This document shows positions 53,206 to 64,000 of a stretch of DNA of 64,000 bases, piece after piece. The notes under the pieces are model-generated. The model searched no databases. It saw only the letters and a list, made by a program, of their open reading frames with translations, and was not told the DNA's origin. Made by a program: the position numbers and the translations under genes. This DNA is from Pollenia angustigena (lineage: Eukaryota > Arthropoda > Insecta > Diptera > Polleniidae), in the NCBI GenBank assembly GCA_930367215.1, contig OV884059.1, positions 159,710,511 through 159,774,510 on the forward strand, written 5' to 3'. Every line of letters starts with the position of its first letter. Within the stretch, counting starts at the first letter, position 1.

Positions 53206-53280
53206 TAAATGTTTTAAGGCCAAAACTTTGTTTTAGTCGCATTTTTATTTTTTATGAATTTTTAAAGAACAAAAATTGTT

Positions 53281-53444
53281 TATTTTTTAAACTTTAATAA
53301 ATTTTTGAGCCTTAGGTCTTTTTTTTATAAAAAACTTTTAACTTTTATTTAAAAACCAATATTTCGGCACTTCCTTGAGTGCCTTCTTCAGGGTTATTTT
53401 TTCTTTAACAAATTATAACAAATTTAACAATAAGTGACAAATTA

Positions 53445-53483
<39 letters not shown>

Positions 53484-53530
53484 AAAAAAGACCTAAGGCT
53501 CAAAAATTTATTAAAGTTTAAAAAATAAAG
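53281..53530. mobile_element. Penelope-type terminus between short inverted arms
   Basis: TTTTTAAACTTTAATAAATT, TTTGAGCCTTAGGTC on the left is mirrored at about 53490-53526. Between the arms, the minus strand reads GAAGAAGGCACTCAAGGAAG, TGCCGAAATATTGG, the phrase typical of Penelope-like element termini. A poly-T tract of about 30 bases (about 53450-53478) follows. No coding part remains. Confidence 0.65.
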
Positions 53531-56500: not shown

Positions 56501-56850
56501 ATTTCCAAACAATTTAAATATGTACAAGTTTATCTATTACAAAAGTTTGATTTCGAGACAATTTAGTTAAACGTAAAAGTCGCGATTCAATATGACCGAA
56601 CAATATGGTGGTTTAACAACGATTGGACTCAGAAATTTTACAAGTTAAAAACCTAAACTTGAAAATTTAAAATCCAATTAAAAACGTAATCTTTAATGAC
56701 GGTGGCGCCTCAAGTTGTCAACTCCTTGCACACACAATAGCCATCAGGGATAAAAAAATCGCTGCCCTAAGTTAAGACGTAAACATGGACCACAAAGAAC
56801 ATCTCTACCTCTGTACACACTAGTAGTATATTTAGGATGGTCCTACGGCA
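53531..56850. other. Repeat-poor, mostly AT-rich DNA with a few less AT-rich islands
   Basis: A short segment at 53745-53830 (ATAACGGTATATCTCGAAAC) is related to the long-hairpin family. Islands at about 54270-54500 and 56195-56420 have less AT and short open frames, but I could not match them to any family. No host exon was recognised. Confidence 0.4.
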
Positions 56851-56854
56851 CTTT

Positions 56855-56945
56855 TTCCATACAAATTTGGGAGCATGGTATAACCCAGCAAACAATCACT
56901 TGTTCCATACACATTTGGGAGCATGGTATAACCCAGCAAACAATT
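56855..56945. repeat. Tandem duplication, two units of 48 bp
   Basis: TTCCATACAAATTTGGGAGC, ATGGTATAACCCAGCAAACA is repeated immediately with one or two changes (starts at 56855 and 56903). Confidence 0.85.
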
Positions 56946-57124
56946 TCATGTAAAAACTATCCTCTATATATCCCTATGTGTCCCCTTCCTATCTTGGAGG
57001 CGATATCGTAGTGAGCATTCGCTATCAAGATTTTATTTTCACCCTACAGTCGGTTGGTTAACTTAATAAGTTCATCGATTTGCAAGCTCCACCACTTTTA
57101 TTGTCTGTGTATGTTTGTGTGTGC

Positions 57125-57350
57125 GTAAATGTGACCGTCTGGCAACCCTATGCGGGCTCTTTGTTAGGTGTTCGTAAAGAGTAGGGTGTGCATGTGTGTA
57201 AATGTAACCATCTGGCAACCCTATGCGGGGTCTTTGTCAGATGTTCGTAAAGAGTAGGGTGTGTGTATGTGTGTGTGTAAATGTGACCATCTGGCAACCC
57301 TATGCGGGGTCTTTGTTGGATGTTCGTAAAGAGTAGGGTGTGTGTAGATA
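57125..57350. repeat. Tandem array, three units of about 73-79 bp
   Basis: Units start GTAAATGTGACCRTCTGGCA and continue through ACCCTATGCGGGGTCTTTGT and TGTTCGTAAAGAGTAGGGTG (starts at 57125, 57198 and 57277). Length differences come from GTGT microsatellite stretches. Frames open here follow the repeat. A separate direct repeat (CTTTTTTATGTAATAT at about 57368 and 57584) follows. Confidence 0.85.
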
Positions 57351-57747
57351 CAACCATGTCGAATGGTCTTTTTTATGTAATATGAAACTTTTTTATTTTC
57401 CAAATGAGTTGTACATACGTGACAAATTTAAGTTTCATAAAGTCTCAAAATTCTTGGAAATACAAAGAAATTTGAGTATTAGTTGAGCAGATGTGTAGGT
57501 GTTTAGAATTCTTAAAAAAACAAAACAAAAATAACTAAATAAATATTTTATAGAATCAGCTAATTGCTCCTTTTCATAATTATCTTTTTTATGTAATATA
57601 AAACCTTTTTATTTTTTTCAAATGAATTCTACATTTATTCGTAATAAATTTATTTTATGTTTGTAATATGATTTCATAAAAAAAGAAACTATGTTTATGA
57701 ATTAGAAAATAAAACAAATAGTTTGATATATGTATGTATGTATATGT

Positions 57748-58071
57748 TTACATTTTATTAAAAATACAATTTTTACATTTAGTTAAATTATATACATTAT
57801 TATTATAATATTCCATGATTTCTTTAGCTTCTTCTATGACAGTTTCTTTTGTTTTCTTAAAGCGGGAGCAGGAACAAGTATCTGGACCACACGTATTATT
57901 TTCATATGACCAAGCACAATTATTGTAATGTTCCCCATATCGATTAGTTATTGTATGAAATTTGTTTCTATCCTCCAGATATGATTTAATGTTCATAATT
58001 TTATTTTTATGTTTATCAGAAATAACGTTAGAAAATTTTTTTAAAAAAGTATAAATCTCTTTGATAATCAT
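57748..58071 (-). CDS. Small Cys-rich protein of the virus-like element (107 aa)
   Basis: Unrecognised. The protein is mainly charged and helical at the N-terminus, with seven Cys placed like a zinc-binding module: one in NNCAWSY, three in the tight group CGPDTCSC, and a final pair in CKNC near the C-terminus, plus one in CIF. It follows the capsid gene after a gap of 278 bp, the widest in the cluster. That gap contains its own TATA-like box (58138-58148), so it may be transcribed separately. The last codons overlap an AATAAA signal. A DNA-binding or virion role is possible but not supported by a named domain. Confidence 0.6.
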   Translation of the reverse strand: MIIKEIYTFLKKFSNVISDKHKNKIMNIKSYLEDRNKFHTITNRYGEHYNNCAWSYENNTCGPDTCSCSRFKKTKETVIEEAKEIMEYYNNNVYNLTKCKNCIFNKM

Positions 58072-58137
58072 TGTTGAATATGTTACTGTATACCTATATG
58101 TAATGTTTGTGAATAATCATTAATATTGATTGCTCTT

Positions 58138-58148
58138 CTATTTATATA
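58138..58148 (-). promoter_or_regulatory. TATA-like box before the 107-aa gene
   Basis: The minus strand reads TATATAAATAG about 67 bp before the start codon, followed by AAGAGCA. A similar TATATAAAG-GAGCA arrangement precedes the 227-aa gene. Confidence 0.45.
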
Positions 58149-58321
58149 ATTTTAACTACGTTCGAAGTGGACTTGTTTCAAAGTCACTATTTCTATCATT
58201 AAAGTATATGAAGAGTAATTTCACAATATTATGAAATTTATAAAAATACTTACTTACTTATAATATTAATAAACAAACAAAATAAATAAAAACAAAAGAT
58301 TTTTAATAGAAAAAATTATAT

Positions 58322-58346
58322 ATATTTATTTATTTATTTTATTTCT
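58322..58346 (-). terminator. Cluster of AATAAA polyadenylation signals after the capsid gene
   Basis: Directly after the stop codon of the 396-aa gene the minus strand reads GAAATAAAATAAATAAATAA, giving three overlapping AATAAA signals. This would suit 3'-end formation for the long leftward transcript. Confidence 0.5.
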
Positions 58347-58349
58347 ATT

Positions 58350-59540
58350 TTACATTAGTTTTTTTATTTCATTTGTAAGTGGTATGTATTCGAACATTTT
58401 ATCATGTATAATTAAACAATATGCGGCCGTATTAGCTGGAATGTTTGTTAAAGTTTTCATCTCAATGCGAATATCGATTGGTCCAGTTTTGACTGATTCA
58501 TTTTGATGAGTCACATCTAACACAATTAAAGGAGCATCGGATTTAAATTGTTCTCGTGTTAGTAATGGTTGTGGATGACGTAAATAATAGCTTTGTTGGA
58601 ACTTCAAATACATTTCGTATAGTAGAGCAAAACGATTTCTATCAAATTTGAGATTTAGATCATCATATGGATAAGTATCAGAATTTAGATAAACTTTTAT
58701 ATCTGACAAATCGCAATGTATAAACTTGTTGTTAGTAGTGTTTCGAAATCCTAAAAGAAGAAAACGAGGTCTTTCATTTTCGTTGGCTAGCTTAACATTC
58801 CACAAAACAGTTGTACTTTCTGGTAGCGAAGGATAATAATACATATCCCAACTTCGAAATGATATATTTAATGGATGACGATTGTTGATGGTTTTAAATA
58901 TATACAATTTATATGTATCAGAAAGTTGAACATGCGGTACTTTCCATGTAATATTAAGTATAGTTAACTTTATTCTTTCTGTGGCAACGCTAGATTTGAA
59001 AACTTGTTTATCATCTTTGGAACGTAAAAGAATCAATTCATGTTTTGAATTGACTATTATTTTGTTAAAATCTTCAGCAAATCCAAGTAACATCTTTAAT
59101 GGCACACAAAAGTTAAAATATCCGTTTACAAGTGTCAAATCATTATTATTAGAGGGTGCCCATCCTGCATTTAAGAGGTTATCACTTTCAGATTTATTAA
59201 GTGAGGCGTAGTTTTTTATTTCTGTTGCAATACCCAAATGTCGTGTACGATCAATCTCTACACCGTTTAATTCATATCGAATTTCATCAAACAAATGTGA
59301 TATACAATTATTTAAGAGCCGTATATTTGAAGAGATTGTTGAATCTTCCTTTGATGCTAACCCTTCAACATATAAGAGACTTTCATGTGGTAATACGTAT
59401 AAATCCTGATTTTGAATGGCTATACGAATTTCATCATTATTCTTAAACGATTGTAAATATGATGAGTAGCTATGATACTCCTTTTTGATGATTGAATTGT
59501 CGAATTTAGGTTTTTGTAAAACATCAATAAAATGATTCAT
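58350..59540 (-). CDS. Double-jelly-roll-type major capsid protein candidate (396 aa)
   Basis: This protein resembles the 'double jelly roll-like domain' proteins found in insect-integrated Polinton-like elements, the likely building block of an icosahedral shell. Seen here: a short N-terminal extension; a beta-rich first half with LYVLPHESLLYVEG (about residues 47-60) and the well-conserved block ISHLFDEIRYELNGVEIDR (about 80-98); a GYFNFCVPLKMLLGF segment (about 140-154); and a second beta-rich half that includes PLNISFRSWDMYYYPSLPES (about 218-237). There are no signal peptide or membrane segments. The length of about 400 aa is shorter than classical Polinton capsids but usual for this insect group. 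Its start overlaps the preceding stop by ATGA. Assignment rests on remembered family pattern, not a search. Confidence 0.72.
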   Translation of the reverse strand: MNHFIDVLQKPKFDNSIIKKEYHSYSSYLQSFKNNDEIRIAIQNQDLYVLPHESLLYVEGLASKEDSTISSNIRLLNNCISHLFDEIRYELNGVEIDRTRHLGIATEIKNYASLNKSESDNLLNAGWAPSNNNDLTLVNGYFNFCVPLKMLLGFAEDFNKIIVNSKHELILLRSKDDKQVFKSSVATERIKLTILNITWKVPHVQLSDTYKLYIFKTINNRHPLNISFRSWDMYYYPSLPESTTVLWNVKLANENERPRFLLLGFRNTTNNKFIHCDLSDIKVYLNSDTYPYDDLNLKFDRNRFALLYEMYLKFQQSYYLRHPQPLLTREQFKSDAPLIVLDVTHQNESVKTGPIDIRIEMKTLTNIPANTAAYCLIIHDKMFEYIPLTNEIKKLM

Positions 59541-59719
59541 TTTTTTAAATGTTTTAATCGAAATCCCAAGTTTTTTAAAAATTCTTGATTATTCTCGCTT
59601 AGACTAAGTCTTAAAGTTTTTTCAGCTTCTTGCTCCTTTGAACGTAAATGTGTGAATGATGACTCCTTATACAAATCACTTGTATTTTTATTACTATTGT
59701 TATTATTGAATATAATCAT
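59537..59719 (-). CDS. Small protein between minor and major capsid genes (60 aa)
   Basis: Unrecognised. It is hydrophilic and Asn/Ser-rich at the start, then forms a charged helix (RSKEQEAEKTLRLSLSENN) and a basic end (RLKHLKK). I accept it as a gene because it fits exactly between its neighbours: it begins 4 bp after the 227-aa gene stops, and its TGA stop overlaps the capsid ATG (ATGA at 59537-59540). This suggests coupled or reinitiated translation. It could be a scaffold or cement-type virion protein, which is inference from position only. Confidence 0.55.
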   Translation of the reverse strand: MIIFNNNNSNKNTSDLYKESSFTHLRSKEQEAEKTLRLSLSENNQEFLKNLGFRLKHLKK

Positions 59720-59723
59720 TCTT

Positions 59724-60407
59724 TTATACTGGTTTTAAATGTAATCGTATAGATATTTTCTCCTCACGAAAATTTATTAAATTTCCTTCTTGATCGATTA
59801 CTTTTAAAACTAAAGTGTTTATACTTTTAGTGTTAACGGGTAAATATATAACATTAGCCGGTGTCTCTGTTATTTTATAGCCGGGACTGACAACAAGCGA
59901 AAACTGATGAAGGGTATGCGCAGATGTGATATTTATATAGGATCCGTTAACAATATTACATTCAACTATAATATTGTTTATTTTTGTAATCTCTATAGTT
60001 TTATCTGAAAAATGTTCTTGATTCTTTTCCAAAATTTTCTTACTAAAGCCCAATAGGGAACCGATTGATCGCTCCTTGTTAAAATAAATTGTATCGGTTG
60101 TACATTTTATAGACGTTTGTAAAGTATTATAATTAGCTTCAATAATAAGATTTCCTCTTGGATTAAGGGTGTTATATTTATCTATAATCAAATCAGCTAT
60201 ATCCGAGAATTCATATGATCCAACAGGTATAACTATTTCATAATCACCAATATGAAATCTATTGTTTTCAACATCAACATTTGGTATAGAATGATATGTA
60301 TCAAGACTAATTAATCCGCAAACGTAATTTCCATCAAGTTGAATGGGGGGAAAATAGTTGGCAACTAGAAGTGAAGTATCACCATTTAATGTTAGCGTTA
60401 TTGACAT
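59724..60407 (-). CDS. Probable minor capsid (penton-like) protein of the virus-like element (227 aa)
   Basis: The protein is beta-rich without membrane segments, as expected for a single jelly-roll virion protein. It starts MSITLTLNGDTS and contains VIPVGSYEFSDIADLIIDKY (about residues 60-79). This block, a strand followed by 'GSY-x-x-x-D-I' and a helix, recurs in proteins coded next to capsid genes in insect Polinton-like elements. Its place just before the major capsid candidate agrees with a penton or minor capsid role. A TATATAAAG box overlaps the stop of the upstream integrase gene, about 45 bp before this start. A receptor-binding or other structural role cannot be excluded. Confidence 0.55.
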   Translation of the reverse strand: MSITLTLNGDTSLLVANYFPPIQLDGNYVCGLISLDTYHSIPNVDVENNRFHIGDYEIVIPVGSYEFSDIADLIIDKYNTLNPRGNLIIEANYNTLQTSIKCTTDTIYFNKERSIGSLLGFSKKILEKNQEHFSDKTIEITKINNIIVECNIVNGSYINITSAHTLHQFSLVVSPGYKITETPANVIYLPVNTKSINTLVLKVIDQEGNLINFREEKISIRLHLKPV

Positions 60408-60450
60408 CTTAAAGTTCGGTGTATTAATAAATTAAAAATTTTTTAATGCT

Positions 60451-60459
60451 CTTTATATA
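60451..60459 (-). promoter_or_regulatory. TATA box overlapping the integrase stop, before the capsid genes
   Basis: The minus strand reads TATATAAAG followed by AGCATT. It ends about 43 bp before the start of the 227-aa gene and includes the final bases of the integrase gene. The spacing would allow a separate transcript for the capsid genes. Confidence 0.5.
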
Positions 60460-61391
60460 GGAGACGAATCGTTTACATTTATCCAAGAGTTATGATCTGA
60501 TGTAAATCCCAACCATTTAACATATAACATATTTCCTCTTCTTCTTAAAATCTTTTCAACCAAATACGTTTCTGGATATTTAGTTTTCATTAGTTCAAAA
60601 TCATAAAAACCACCTTTAATATCATGTCCTTTATAATCTTTTAGTATATAAGTGGTAGGACTTGTGGATCTTACAGTTTTAACTTTAAAGATTTCTGTAG
60701 TCCAATTCGGTGTATAACCTTTTTCAAACACATGTTTATATTTACTTATTCGAACATTATCACCAACTTTAAACTTCGGTCTTTTAAACACTTTTAAATT
60801 GTTGTAGACTGTATCCAATAGTGATTTTTCATTTGATAAATTTACTTGATTTGGTGTCATTTTTATTGTTCTATGATAAGTATTATTATATTTATTAACA
60901 AGTTCTTGATAAATGTGTATCCATTTATATGTTCCTTGATAACTAAATTCTTTCCACATTAGTCCCTTTAATGTTCTATTAAATCGTTCAATGATGGAAG
61001 CTTTTAAAACGCTATATGTTGAATAGTGATTAATATGATTTAATTGCATCAATCGATGAAATTGATTATTGAAGAATTCTTTACCATCATCTGTTTGTAG
61101 GTTTTTCGGTTTTCTATGATTAATATTAAATATATTTTTAAAAGCGTTCAGTACACTTTCACCACTTTTATTTTTTACTGCAACAGCCCAAGCTTTTTTC
61201 GAAAATGTATCTATTACGGTTAAAAGATAACGATATCCATTGTTAAATGTTGCATAACTTCCCATTTCTACTAAATCCGCTTGCCATAAATCATCAATTC
61301 CTTTTACAACAACTCGCCTTCTTTTAAAATTTTTTCTCGCTTGTCTATGTAGTTCATTAACTATTGTTCTTTTATCTGCATTTAGATTCAT
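60453..61391 (-). CDS. DDE integrase with C-terminal chromodomain, Polinton type (312 aa)
   Basis: This retrovirus-like integrase joins the element's DNA to host chromosomes. The N-terminus is short and basic (KNFKRRRVVVKG, about residues 20-31). The catalytic core begins at WQADLVEM with the first Asp at 39. The second Asp is at 101 in QTDDGKEF, and the Glu at 135 in ASIIERFNRTLK gives a D-D-34-E layout. Further core marks are the DTFSKKAWAV strand (61-70) and the NNTYHRTIKMTPNQV end block. A small SH3-like segment follows (KFKVGDNVRISKYK), then a chromodomain (VEKILRRRGNMLYVKWLGF...SW, about 272-302) that may steer insertion to methylated chromatin. All catalytic residues are present. It lacks an obvious N-terminal HHCC zinc finger, so the start may be truncated or encoded elsewhere. 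Confidence 0.9.
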   Translation of the reverse strand: MNLNADKRTIVNELHRQARKNFKRRRVVVKGIDDLWQADLVEMGSYATFNNGYRYLLTVIDTFSKKAWAVAVKNKSGESVLNAFKNIFNINHRKPKNLQTDDGKEFFNNQFHRLMQLNHINHYSTYSVLKASIIERFNRTLKGLMWKEFSYQGTYKWIHIYQELVNKYNNTYHRTIKMTPNQVNLSNEKSLLDTVYNNLKVFKRPKFKVGDNVRISKYKHVFEKGYTPNWTTEIFKVKTVRSTSPTTYILKDYKGHDIKGGFYDFELMKTKYPETYLVEKILRRRGNMLYVKWLGFTSDHNSWINVNDSSPI

Positions 61392-61429
61392 ATCTTTTAT
61401 TTTTGTATTATGTCTGAATTAATATATAT

Positions 61430-62107
61430 TTATGGATATTTAGTTATCTTTATCGGAGGACGTTTATCAATATTTTTAAAAAGGTAATCTTCAATATTGT
61501 TAAATCTTTCATCTATGCCATCCAATTTTAAAATATATTCTTCTACTTTATTAACTCTTTCATCCACTTTTTTCATATATTCTTTATTTACTTTTAATAT
61601 TTGTTTCTCAACTGATTGTTCAATAACATTTTCCTCCTTCTTTATATGATTTGGAATGGCAATACTAATAGCTTCTACATCTTTATAGAACTTTTCAATG
61701 TTATTAACGATAGCTTGATTAATTTCATTTTTTAAGTCTGATATTTTCTTTTCGAAATCTTTGTTAGCAGTGGTAATGACTTCAACATCTTTATACAGCT
61801 TTTCTATGTTATTAACGATAGCATGGTTAATTTTATTTGTTAGCAGTTGTATTTTAGTTTCAACATCTTTAACAGTTTTATCTATTTTATTTGTTAGTAA
61901 TTCATTTGTTCGTTTTAAATAGGCTTTTGTAACAGCATCCTTAGGTTCGATCGGTGTGGCTAGATTAGTAATTCTTTTTTTATGTATATCAAAAACATGA
62001 TTGTTTACTTCAACATCAAGCATTTTTAATAGATTTGATCTTAGTTTTGAATCGTTAAATTTATACTTATGTGTTGAGCTTTCTCCAAATTTATTTATAA
62101 AACTCAT
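61430..62107 (-). CDS. Coiled-coil, tail-fibre-like protein of the virus-like element (225 aa)
   Basis: The first 60 residues lead to HKKRITNLATPIEPKDAVTK followed by AYLKR. This closely follows the '(K/R)-I-T-N-(L/V)-x-x-P-x-x-x-x-D-A-V-T-K-x-Y' motif that marks the neck of many viral and phage fibre proteins. Most of the rest is heptad-patterned coiled coil with an internal duplication (two copies of AIVNNIEKxYKDVE, about 90-103 and 130-143) and a second pair of long helices. The C-terminus (FKNIDKRPPIKITKYP) is short, with no globular knob. The gene starts only 4 bp after the 479-aa gene stops. A trimeric virion fibre or spike role is inferred from the motif and context. Confidence 0.65.
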   Translation of the reverse strand: MSFINKFGESSTHKYKFNDSKLRSNLLKMLDVEVNNHVFDIHKKRITNLATPIEPKDAVTKAYLKRTNELLTNKIDKTVKDVETKIQLLTNKINHAIVNNIEKLYKDVEVITTANKDFEKKISDLKNEINQAIVNNIEKFYKDVEAISIAIPNHIKKEENVIEQSVEKQILKVNKEYMKKVDERVNKVEEYILKLDGIDERFNNIEDYLFKNIDKRPPIKITKYP

Positions 62108-62111
62108 GTTT

Positions 62112-63551
62112 TTAATATATTATATTAGCCTCTCTTAGTTCCTCAATAATTGAAATTATCTCGTTTTTATGATTATTATGACCAGCACCTTCCGATGAAA
62201 GGAGTAAACGTAATCTGTCGACTAATTCATTAGGATCATCCCAATATATATAGTTTGGTTTACGTTTTTCTACTAATTTTAAGGATAATCCACTACCTTT
62301 AGTAAGAATATTACCCTTTGTGTTGAATAATTTTTTTATAATGCGTTCATATTTAAATGCTTTAGTTCCTTTAATTTGTTTATTTGACTGATAGTTACGT
62401 CTGTGTACATTTGTATTAATAAGAATATCTTTATATTTTTTTAAATCTATTTTATTATAATGTAAAGGTTTTATGTGGAATAATAGTTCAAATAATCCTG
62501 GTGTCAATTTCAATTTTTTATCGCCTATATATAAAGTGTTATCGTTATTAAATTTTAGTTTGTTTGTTCCATATCGCCAATTTCCAGCATGATCTATATT
62601 AAATCCATAGATTCTATCAATCATTTCATTATTTATTAACAACATAATATTCTTATAAAGAGGTGATTCATTTAATTTAGAATTACTTAATTTAATTCGT
62701 TTCTTATCGGTATTTAATTGTGTTTTACTTTTACGTTTGGAAAATAAATGTGTGATTTTGTTGCGTTTTCTATCACCATCTTCATCGAAATTTGAAAGCA
62801 ATGAATAATTCTTTCTTTTTAGATTTTTTTGATTTTTATCATTCTTCAATTGTGTTGTGGATGTTGTTGTTTTTGTTTTTAGTGAAATGTGCTTTTTAGT
62901 ACTGATAGGTTTTGATGATTTCGTTGTTTCTGTTGATTGTAAAATTTTCATATTATTTTTCTTTCTCTTTATATTAGGTAGAGTAGATGTGTTATTGCTA
63001 AATGTTCTTATTCTTTTTAAGTTGTTTAGGTATTGGACTTTGTTATCATTATTATCTTCATTGTAATGGTCATCATCATCAATATCCATGTCGTAATTGG
63101 ATTTATTTTCTTCATTTAACCTCATCAAACTAGATACATTATCAATATCATTATCATAATCCATATTGGAGTTAGATCTATTTTCTTCATTAAAAACAGC
63201 AAAACCAGCTTCGTTATTATCAATTTCATCATCATCATAATCCATATAAGAAAGAACATTACTAGAAGCATTATCCTGATTTAAATTAGGTCTATATAGT
63301 GATAGAGAAGATGGTGTATATAGTGATTGATATGATGGCGCTCGTACTGTTCCAGAAGATTTATTTGTCTTATCAAGTTTTTTTATTATATGTTTTAAAG
63401 GTTTTGTTATAGGTTTAAAGGTATCTTCTAACATATTAACTTTATCTATTTCATTAAGTTTAATATTTTGTAATTTTTCCTTTAATACCGCTCTGGTTTC
63501 AACAATATGTTTTAACAATTCATTATTCTTATTCATGATTGCTGAATGCAT
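62112..63551 (-). CDS. Large charged protein with DUF8207-like C-terminus (479 aa)
   Basis: This is the first gene of the cluster. Seen in order: an N-terminal helical, possibly coiled-coil region (about residues 6-60); a Ser/Tyr-rich stretch; an acidic Asn/Asp-rich region with repeated MDYDxDxDN words (about 100-170); a strongly basic Lys/Arg/Ser/Thr-rich segment (about 185-290); and a folded C-terminal domain (about 300-475). The C-terminal domain contains IYGFNIDHAGNWRYGTNKL, KLTPGLFELLFHIKP and the closing WDDPNELVDRLRLLLSSEG. I recall it as the DUF8207 domain common in insect Polinton-like elements. Function is unknown; the basic region could bind DNA. A second Met is six codons in, so the exact start is uncertain. 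Confidence 0.68.
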   Translation of the reverse strand: MHSAIMNKNNELLKHIVETRAVLKEKLQNIKLNEIDKVNMLEDTFKPITKPLKHIIKKLDKTNKSSGTVRAPSYQSLYTPSSLSLYRPNLNQDNASSNVLSYMDYDDDEIDNNEAGFAVFNEENRSNSNMDYDNDIDNVSSLMRLNEENKSNYDMDIDDDDHYNEDNNDNKVQYLNNLKRIRTFSNNTSTLPNIKRKKNNMKILQSTETTKSSKPISTKKHISLKTKTTTSTTQLKNDKNQKNLKRKNYSLLSNFDEDGDRKRNKITHLFSKRKSKTQLNTDKKRIKLSNSKLNESPLYKNIMLLINNEMIDRIYGFNIDHAGNWRYGTNKLKFNNDNTLYIGDKKLKLTPGLFELLFHIKPLHYNKIDLKKYKDILINTNVHRRNYQSNKQIKGTKAFKYERIIKKLFNTKGNILTKGSGLSLKLVEKRKPNYIYWDDPNELVDRLRLLLSSEGAGHNNHKNEIISIIEELREANIIY

Positions 63552-63909: not shown

Positions 63910-64000
63910 AAATCTTACTTATAATTGAATAAAATTATTAAATCCCTTCCTATAACGACCGCCATTAATTGGATCGTCCTTACTGACAACAACAAAACCA

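Follow-up and report, generated by a model that had tools for sequence, protein, structure and literature searches.

A probably recent Polinton/Maverick insertion with open virus-like genes, and its sister lineages, in the genome of the fly Pollenia angustigena

Gene cluster and termini of the element

The stretch of DNA analysed here (64,000 nucleotides, referred to as the window) lies on contig C4, which is chromosome 4 of the fly Pollenia angustigena (genome 1,370,458,813 bases). Virus-like genes in its right part form the left half of a complete Polinton/Maverick element of 16,609 bp, of which both termini were located; the other half is held by the stretch to the right of the window (L009). 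The window copy represents lineage A1; in a related lineage, A2 (L042/L043), the capsid protein is 92% identical to that of A1. The features of the element are the following, with L009 positions where these are needed.

56816..56821, no strand: target-site duplication CACACT, 6 bp, with its partner at L009:9431-9436
56822..57606, no strand: left terminal inverted repeat (TIR), starting AGTAGTATATTTAGG, with 3.1 copies of a 79-bp repeat, from the inverted comparison of both sides
57748..58071, minus strand: cysteine-rich protein of 107 amino acids (aa), a complete open reading frame (ORF), 69% identical in lineage A2
58350..59540, minus strand: major capsid protein, double jelly roll, 396 aa, from Pfam and the predicted fold
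59724..60407, minus strand: penton (minor capsid) protein, 227 aa, from the predicted structure
60453..61391, minus strand: integrase of retroviral type, 312 aa, D39/D101/E135, from Pfam, with a weak match to a chromodomain at the C terminus
61430..62107, minus strand: candidate fibre protein, 225 aa, with internal repeats and a tail-fibre-like stretch near the N terminus
62112..63551, minus strand: conserved protein of 479 aa
63576..63905, no strand: tandem array of about 30 units of 11 bp (ATCTGCTTTNN), separating the stop of the ATPase gene from the start of the 479-aa one
63919..64000, minus strand: 3' end of the A32-type packaging ATPase gene, stop codon at 63919-63921, ORF beginning at L009:566
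L009:8561-9430: right TIR with 4.1 copies of the 79-bp repeat, from the inverted comparison of both sides

The two TIRs are about 0.8 kb long, have AGTAGT... ends and are identical in 487 of 505 aligned bases, with the outer part nearly free of differences, and CACACT flanks the element at both ends. Because the TIRs and CACACT are found on both sides and near-identical copies occur elsewhere in the genome, the cluster in the window is not a chance arrangement. The assignment to the Polinton/Maverick type, made before by a sequence-only reading of the window, is thus supported by the TIRs, the 6-bp duplication and the integrase, capsid, penton and ATPase genes. That reading had counted seven genes on one strand, and six complete ORFs from ATG to stop (107, 396, 227, 312, 225 and 479 aa) plus the 3' end of the ATPase gene were indeed found, all on the minus strand. 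Its description of the surroundings as decayed agrees with the lack of any stop-to-stop ORF of at least 150 aa in window 1-56000. On L009 the element holds the start of the ATPase gene and the genes of a PLA2-domain protein, a protease-like protein, a polymerase-like protein (exons 2 and 1) and proteins of 173 and 103 aa.

Identity of the encoded proteins

The capsid protein, expected from the sequence to be of capsid type, matches the Pfam DJR-like domain with E 3.3e-124. Predicted structures recovered the double-jelly-roll fold for this protein and a penton fold for the 227-aa protein, which was assigned in this way, all its Pfam matches being under the cut-off. Homologues of the capsid were found in 2,375 proteins, and the best 120 of these 2,375 include proteins of Lucilia cuprina and L. 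sericata (85%), Stomoxys calcitrans (79%), Glossina fuscipes (73%, partial), Calliphora vicina (60%), Musca and Haematobia. For the integrase-chromodomain protein proposed earlier the integrase part stood (E 8.4e-14 to Pfam rve and 7.2e-7 to the PFV integrase chain; acidic residues at positions 39, 101 and 135), whereas the chromodomain match was weak (E 0.0026, under the Pfam cut-off). The ATPase matches Pox_A32 (E 1.1e-7; 32 bits, the cut-off being 22.8) and has the P-loop GPSNCGKT, and the PLA2 match of the protein encoded on L009 has E 5.7e-13.

The fibre-like nature of the 225-aa protein received modest support from a PHROG tail fibre match (E 3.5e-6); the Pfam T7 tail fibre match (E 5.3e-4) fell under its cut-off, Clathrin_bdg (E 6.4e-5) was just over its own, and the protein search returned one homologue. 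The 107-, 479-, 173- and 103-aa proteins match no profile family above cut-off (PHROGs left out for the 107- and 103-aa proteins). The likeness to DUF8207 that had been claimed for the 479-aa protein did not show in Pfam, where it gave no family at E up to 1.

Structure of the polymerase-like gene

The polymerase-like gene consists of two exons; exon 2 contains an Endonuclease VII domain (E 1e-6), and exon 1 has a weak zinc-finger match. An alignment with phi29 DNA polymerase pairs DVNNLYGYAM with DVNSLYPAQM and KLLNNAVYGK with KLMLNSLYGK. The gap between the exons is 84 bp in A1 and has GTAGGT at one end and a T-rich tract with ACAG at the other. All nine A1 copies examined, the window copy among them, agree at both borders, and the gap lies at the same codon in A2 and in two elements of a further lineage, B1 (L045/L040/L041) and B2 (L048/L046/L047). 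Judged from these signals, the polymerase message is presumably spliced. The split ORF was at first read as a broken polymerase; this was rejected because all 12 elements examined have the splice-like signals at one and the same codon.

Copy number and age

The copy numbers of integrase and capsid are lower bounds, since the best candidates only were scored. With the integrase the genome search gave 127 scored matches, of which 59 are full-length at ≥99% identity; 53 of the 59 are free of stops and 29 share the top score. With the capsid 106 matches were obtained, 62 of them at ≥99% identity and reaching residue 394 or 396 (56 of 62 stop-free). The search with the TIR tip gave 40 matches, all at 100% identity (rounded). 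Thirty tips were taken, yielding 12 A1 pairs with exact 6-bp duplications in 12 of 12 and no mismatch in the 284 outer TIR positions of each pair; in the inner TIR 5 mismatches were counted over the 11 assessable 170-bp stretches, the twelfth pair not being assessable. A further eight copies show 3 to 9 mismatches to the window over about 3.9 kb, and three of them are also gapped. The near-identical TIRs, the exact duplications and the stop-free capsid genes bear out a recent insertion, which the earlier reading had named as one of two possibilities, the other being maintenance of the genes. The fly mutation rate is about 3e-9 per site and generation, and at this rate the TIR divergence of about 0.1% corresponds to the order of 100,000 to 200,000 generations, a rough figure.

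Some copies are old or broken, several having stops. At C2:91858363-91912298 nine integrase matches lie in the same orientation, with six of eight spacings of about 6.5 kb and three TAA stops listed in each; this region (C2:91.86-91.91 Mb) seems to be a decayed Polinton piece turned into a tandem array.

Selection between lineages A1 and A2

The ratio of nonsynonymous to synonymous divergence (dN/dS) between A1 and A2 was 0.14 for the capsid, 0.26 for the penton, 0.16 for the integrase, 0.25 for PLA2, 0.06 for the protease and 0.07 for the part of the ATPase compared. Values of 0.29 and 0.41 were obtained for the 479-aa and 107-aa proteins, and 0.09 for polymerase exon 2; exon 1 (0.19) and the 173-aa protein (0.14) both have saturated dS. 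The 225-aa protein has the highest value among the 12 segments compared (0.87). By these ratios, purifying selection acts on the capsid genes.

Exchange of ends between sister lineages

The comparison of lineages covers one A1, one A2 and two B elements. Between A1 and A2, dS is 0.20-0.33 in the capsid, penton, integrase, 479-aa, ATPase and PLA2 genes; it reaches 0.50 in the protease gene, 0.88-0.94 and 1.38 in polymerase exons 2 and 1, respectively, and 2.40 in orf173. The two lineages have in common a young capsid core, while their polymerase ends are older. In polymerase exon 1, A1 and A2 were the nearest pair by dN in none of 200 resamplings (A1-B in 179, A2-B in 21), and for the other 10 segments they were so in 194 to 200 of 200. 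The alignment of the TIRs of A1 with those of A2 gave nothing, and the polymerase sits at opposite ends of the element in B and in A.

Both B elements have exact target duplications (CCACTC in B1, CTTCGC in B2), and the own two TIRs of each are 99.4-99.8% alike. B1 and B2 share about 11.8 kb of core, in which some 19 differences were counted, whereas the alignable TIR parts at both ends differ by about 10% or more; polymerase exon 1 differs by 0-8% per 250-bp bin. The shift in divergence is sharp at the right TIR border and gradual on the left. From these comparisons the sister lineages appear to have swapped ends, consisting of TIR, polymerase and accessory genes, around a conserved capsid core. 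We infer that an end was replaced and one TIR was then copied onto the other, which would explain the matched TIR pairs.

Unequal rates, or gene conversion homogenising the core, might give such a mosaic pattern without an exchange of ends. Gene conversion could yield a near-identical core (and is itself recombination), and the sample is small. By dS, A1 and A2 stay closest in exon 1 (1.38 versus 2.60 and a capped 3.0), contrary to dN, but dS above about 1 is saturated. This explanation has to account for the climb of A1-A2 dS from the six core genes to orf173 together with the switch of the nearest pair in exon 1, and for the contrast between the B1-B2 core and both TIRs with its sharp right border and the variable exon 1 stretch on the left, and we regard it as rather improbable.

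A supposed A/B chimera at C2:225.12 Mb, with an A1 capsid gene beside a B-type BIR gene, was rejected, as the place holds an A1 element into which one of B1 has inserted. At L067:5828 the B1 insertion lies at or just before the PLA2 gene start of an A1 element (the A1 matches reach as far as L009:803, and the gene starts at 810). B1 sits inside an A1 element here, therefore B moved after A at this site.

Accessory genes of the B and A2 lineages

In the B elements the gene of a 232-aa BIR protein adjoins one TIR (L046:897-1595, plus strand; L040:9392-10000, minus strand, into L041). The part on L040 matches the BIR domain with E 1.2e-17, and residues 29-131 match the Drosophila DIAP1 BIR1 chains ('Apoptosis 1 inhibitor') with E 1.2e-43. 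A C-terminal hydrophobic stretch is seen in the sequence. The genome search with this gene gave 153 matches, of which 31 are full-length at ≥99% identity, all without stops. Among the matches listed, all 11 integrases of one B sublineage have the BIR gene within 12 kb, as do 9 of the 25 of another and 12 of the 14 B capsid genes. Between two B sublineages its dN/dS is 0.31 for the whole gene, 0.20 for the BIR part and 0.36 for the tail, and 0.64 against a closer copy. The capture of the gene is probably old.

The BIR domain is common to this cargo, to the inhibitor-of-apoptosis (IAP) genes of baculovirus type and to fly DIAP1. Unlike these, the B protein has a single BIR and a C-terminal hydrophobic tail, lacks a second BIR and a RING, and is carried by a Polinton. 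In the published text searched, an IAP gene carried by a Polinton was nowhere reported, subscription papers lying outside the search. That a DIAP1-type gene is open in all 31 near-identical copies points to a virus-like phase that needs delayed host-cell death.

In A2 (L042:1624-2739, plus strand; L043:6248-7645, plus strand) a glutamine-rich RING-like protein is encoded just inside one TIR, together with two proteins with signal-peptide-like starts, which by eye are related in look. The window copy has neither BIR nor RING-like nor signal-peptide-like accessory genes.

Repeats in and beside the element

The 79-bp repeats of the TIRs (window 57107-57346; L009:8819-9145) vary in number between the ends and between copies. 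A second, short array of the 11-bp unit lies at L009:617-712, where the ATPase and PLA2 genes diverge. In A1, arrays of this kind stand next to the starts of the ATPase, 479-aa and PLA2 genes; in A2 they are shorter (L043:539-605); none was found in the B1 element. From their position they might be control sites. Outside the element, at window 53279-53529, there is a 56-bp inverted repeat whose arms match perfectly and are separated by a 139-bp spacer.

Discussion

The element in the window is best explained as a recently inserted Polinton/Maverick, an adintovirus-like provirus with open genes, to which we give a probability of about 0.9. Its genes would be transcribed in the nucleus and the polymerase message then spliced; the DNA would be replicated from the TIRs by the element's own family-B-like polymerase. 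The A32-type ATPase would package it into icosahedral particles, built of penton and double-jelly-roll capsid protein. The integrase would insert the element with a 6-bp duplication, and spread might take place between cells or flies.

Several observations weigh against this explanation. The element is known here from sequence, and stops are already present in 6 of 59 integrases and 6 of 62 capsid genes of young copies. The rightward extension proposed earlier led to the ATPase and the TIRs, but the protease-like match remained under the Pfam cut-off (Peptidase_C5 E 0.019, 15.1 bits versus 21.3) and the polymerase-like gene matched no polymerase in the profile searches, nor any among solved structures by sequence search. 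Its identity rests partly on motifs that we take to be those of exonuclease and polymerase, which are present in order, and the hhalign comparison with phi29 DNA polymerase was weak (E 0.015, probability 3%). The sequence search of solved structures gave no match for the capsid, which was recognised there by fold alone. In the scan of viral contigs no capsid relative was confirmed among 86 pattern-matching stretches, and records close to this genome may be excluded from that scan.

The many chromosomal copies and the lack of a free-virus contig in that scan would also suit a transposon that moves only inside cells and carries its capsid genes as passengers. Passengers are disfavoured because a useless gene is expected to drift between lineages: dN/dS of the capsid, penton, PLA2, protease and ATPase genes (0.06-0.26) is similar to that of the integrase (0.16) and the polymerase exons (0.09-0.19), and most young capsid genes are stop-free, so that we hold such a transposon to be unlikely. 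Purifying selection on the capsid genes would likewise be expected if the host maintained them as domesticated particle genes, comparable to the systems that parasitoid wasps have derived from viruses. Mobility is usually lost on domestication, whereas the elements here retain an open polymerase-like gene as well as the integrase, TIRs and target duplications, and the copies are scattered over many young sites, one having an element of another lineage inserted; the chance of domestication is therefore very small. Near-identity of the copies could raise the suspicion of an assembly artefact or of a contaminating virus joined into contigs. This is hardly credible, as the flanks differ and carry exact 6-bp duplications in the 12 A1 pairs and in the window, B1 and B2 copies, and the assembly is, by its description, a HiFi chromosome assembly of quality value (QV) 51.7 (PMC11437293).

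Beyond the provirus explanation of the window copy, we put forward tentatively, at somewhat less than even odds, that several Polinton lineages moving at about the same time make up a recombining virus population. In such a population a capsid core would be passed between interchangeable ends, each with a matched TIR pair, the N-terminus of the polymerase and accessory genes. Among the latter, one type would be a captured DIAP1 BIR1 with a membrane-anchor-like tail, which could restrain the effector caspase drICE or bind Reaper-type killers during replication. The mosaics suggest that the lineages meet and recombine in one nucleus. Whether animal Polintons still form particles is, as far as we know, not settled, and existing reads allow the question to be tested in this insect, whose several lineages comprise dozens of young copies with open genes.

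Comparison with known systems

Polinton/Maverick elements are about 15-20 kb long and have TIRs, a 6-bp duplication, a retroviral-type integrase, a protein-primed family-B polymerase, an A32/FtsK-type ATPase, an adenovirus-type cysteine protease, a double-jelly-roll capsid and a penton. Those of animals were reportedly described by Kapitonov and Jurka in 2006 and by Pritham and colleagues in Gene 390. The present element matches them in its length of 16,609 bp, the TIRs, the 6-bp duplication, the integrase, the A32-type ATPase, the double-jelly-roll capsid and the penton. It differs from them in the short intron at a conserved site of the polymerase-like gene, the PLA2-domain protein and the 11-bp arrays beside genes, which may not be new to the group.

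Adintoviridae are said to have been defined by Starrett and colleagues in 2021 by adenovirus-like virion genes plus an integrase in an animal, and both are present in the element. According to the report on Drosophila-associated adintoviruses 1-3 (Wallace et al. 2021, PMC8363768), these are 13.3-14.6 kb long, number 1 encodes polymerase, integrase, capsid, protease and FtsK proteins and number 2 nearly the same set, and both may be integrated in fly genomes. Compared with that description, the elements of P. angustigena have known chromosomal sites, termini and copy number and form several lineages per genome; among the described entities considered here, the Drosophila-associated adintoviruses are the nearest. 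The predicted capsid and penton folds are also common to the virophages Mavirus and Sputnik. Virophages depend on giant viruses; unlike Mavirus and Sputnik, the element resides in an animal genome. The type of element is already known; what is unusual is how many young copies with open genes a single genome has in several lineages, together with the evidence of end exchange and the DIAP1-type gene kept in sister lineages.

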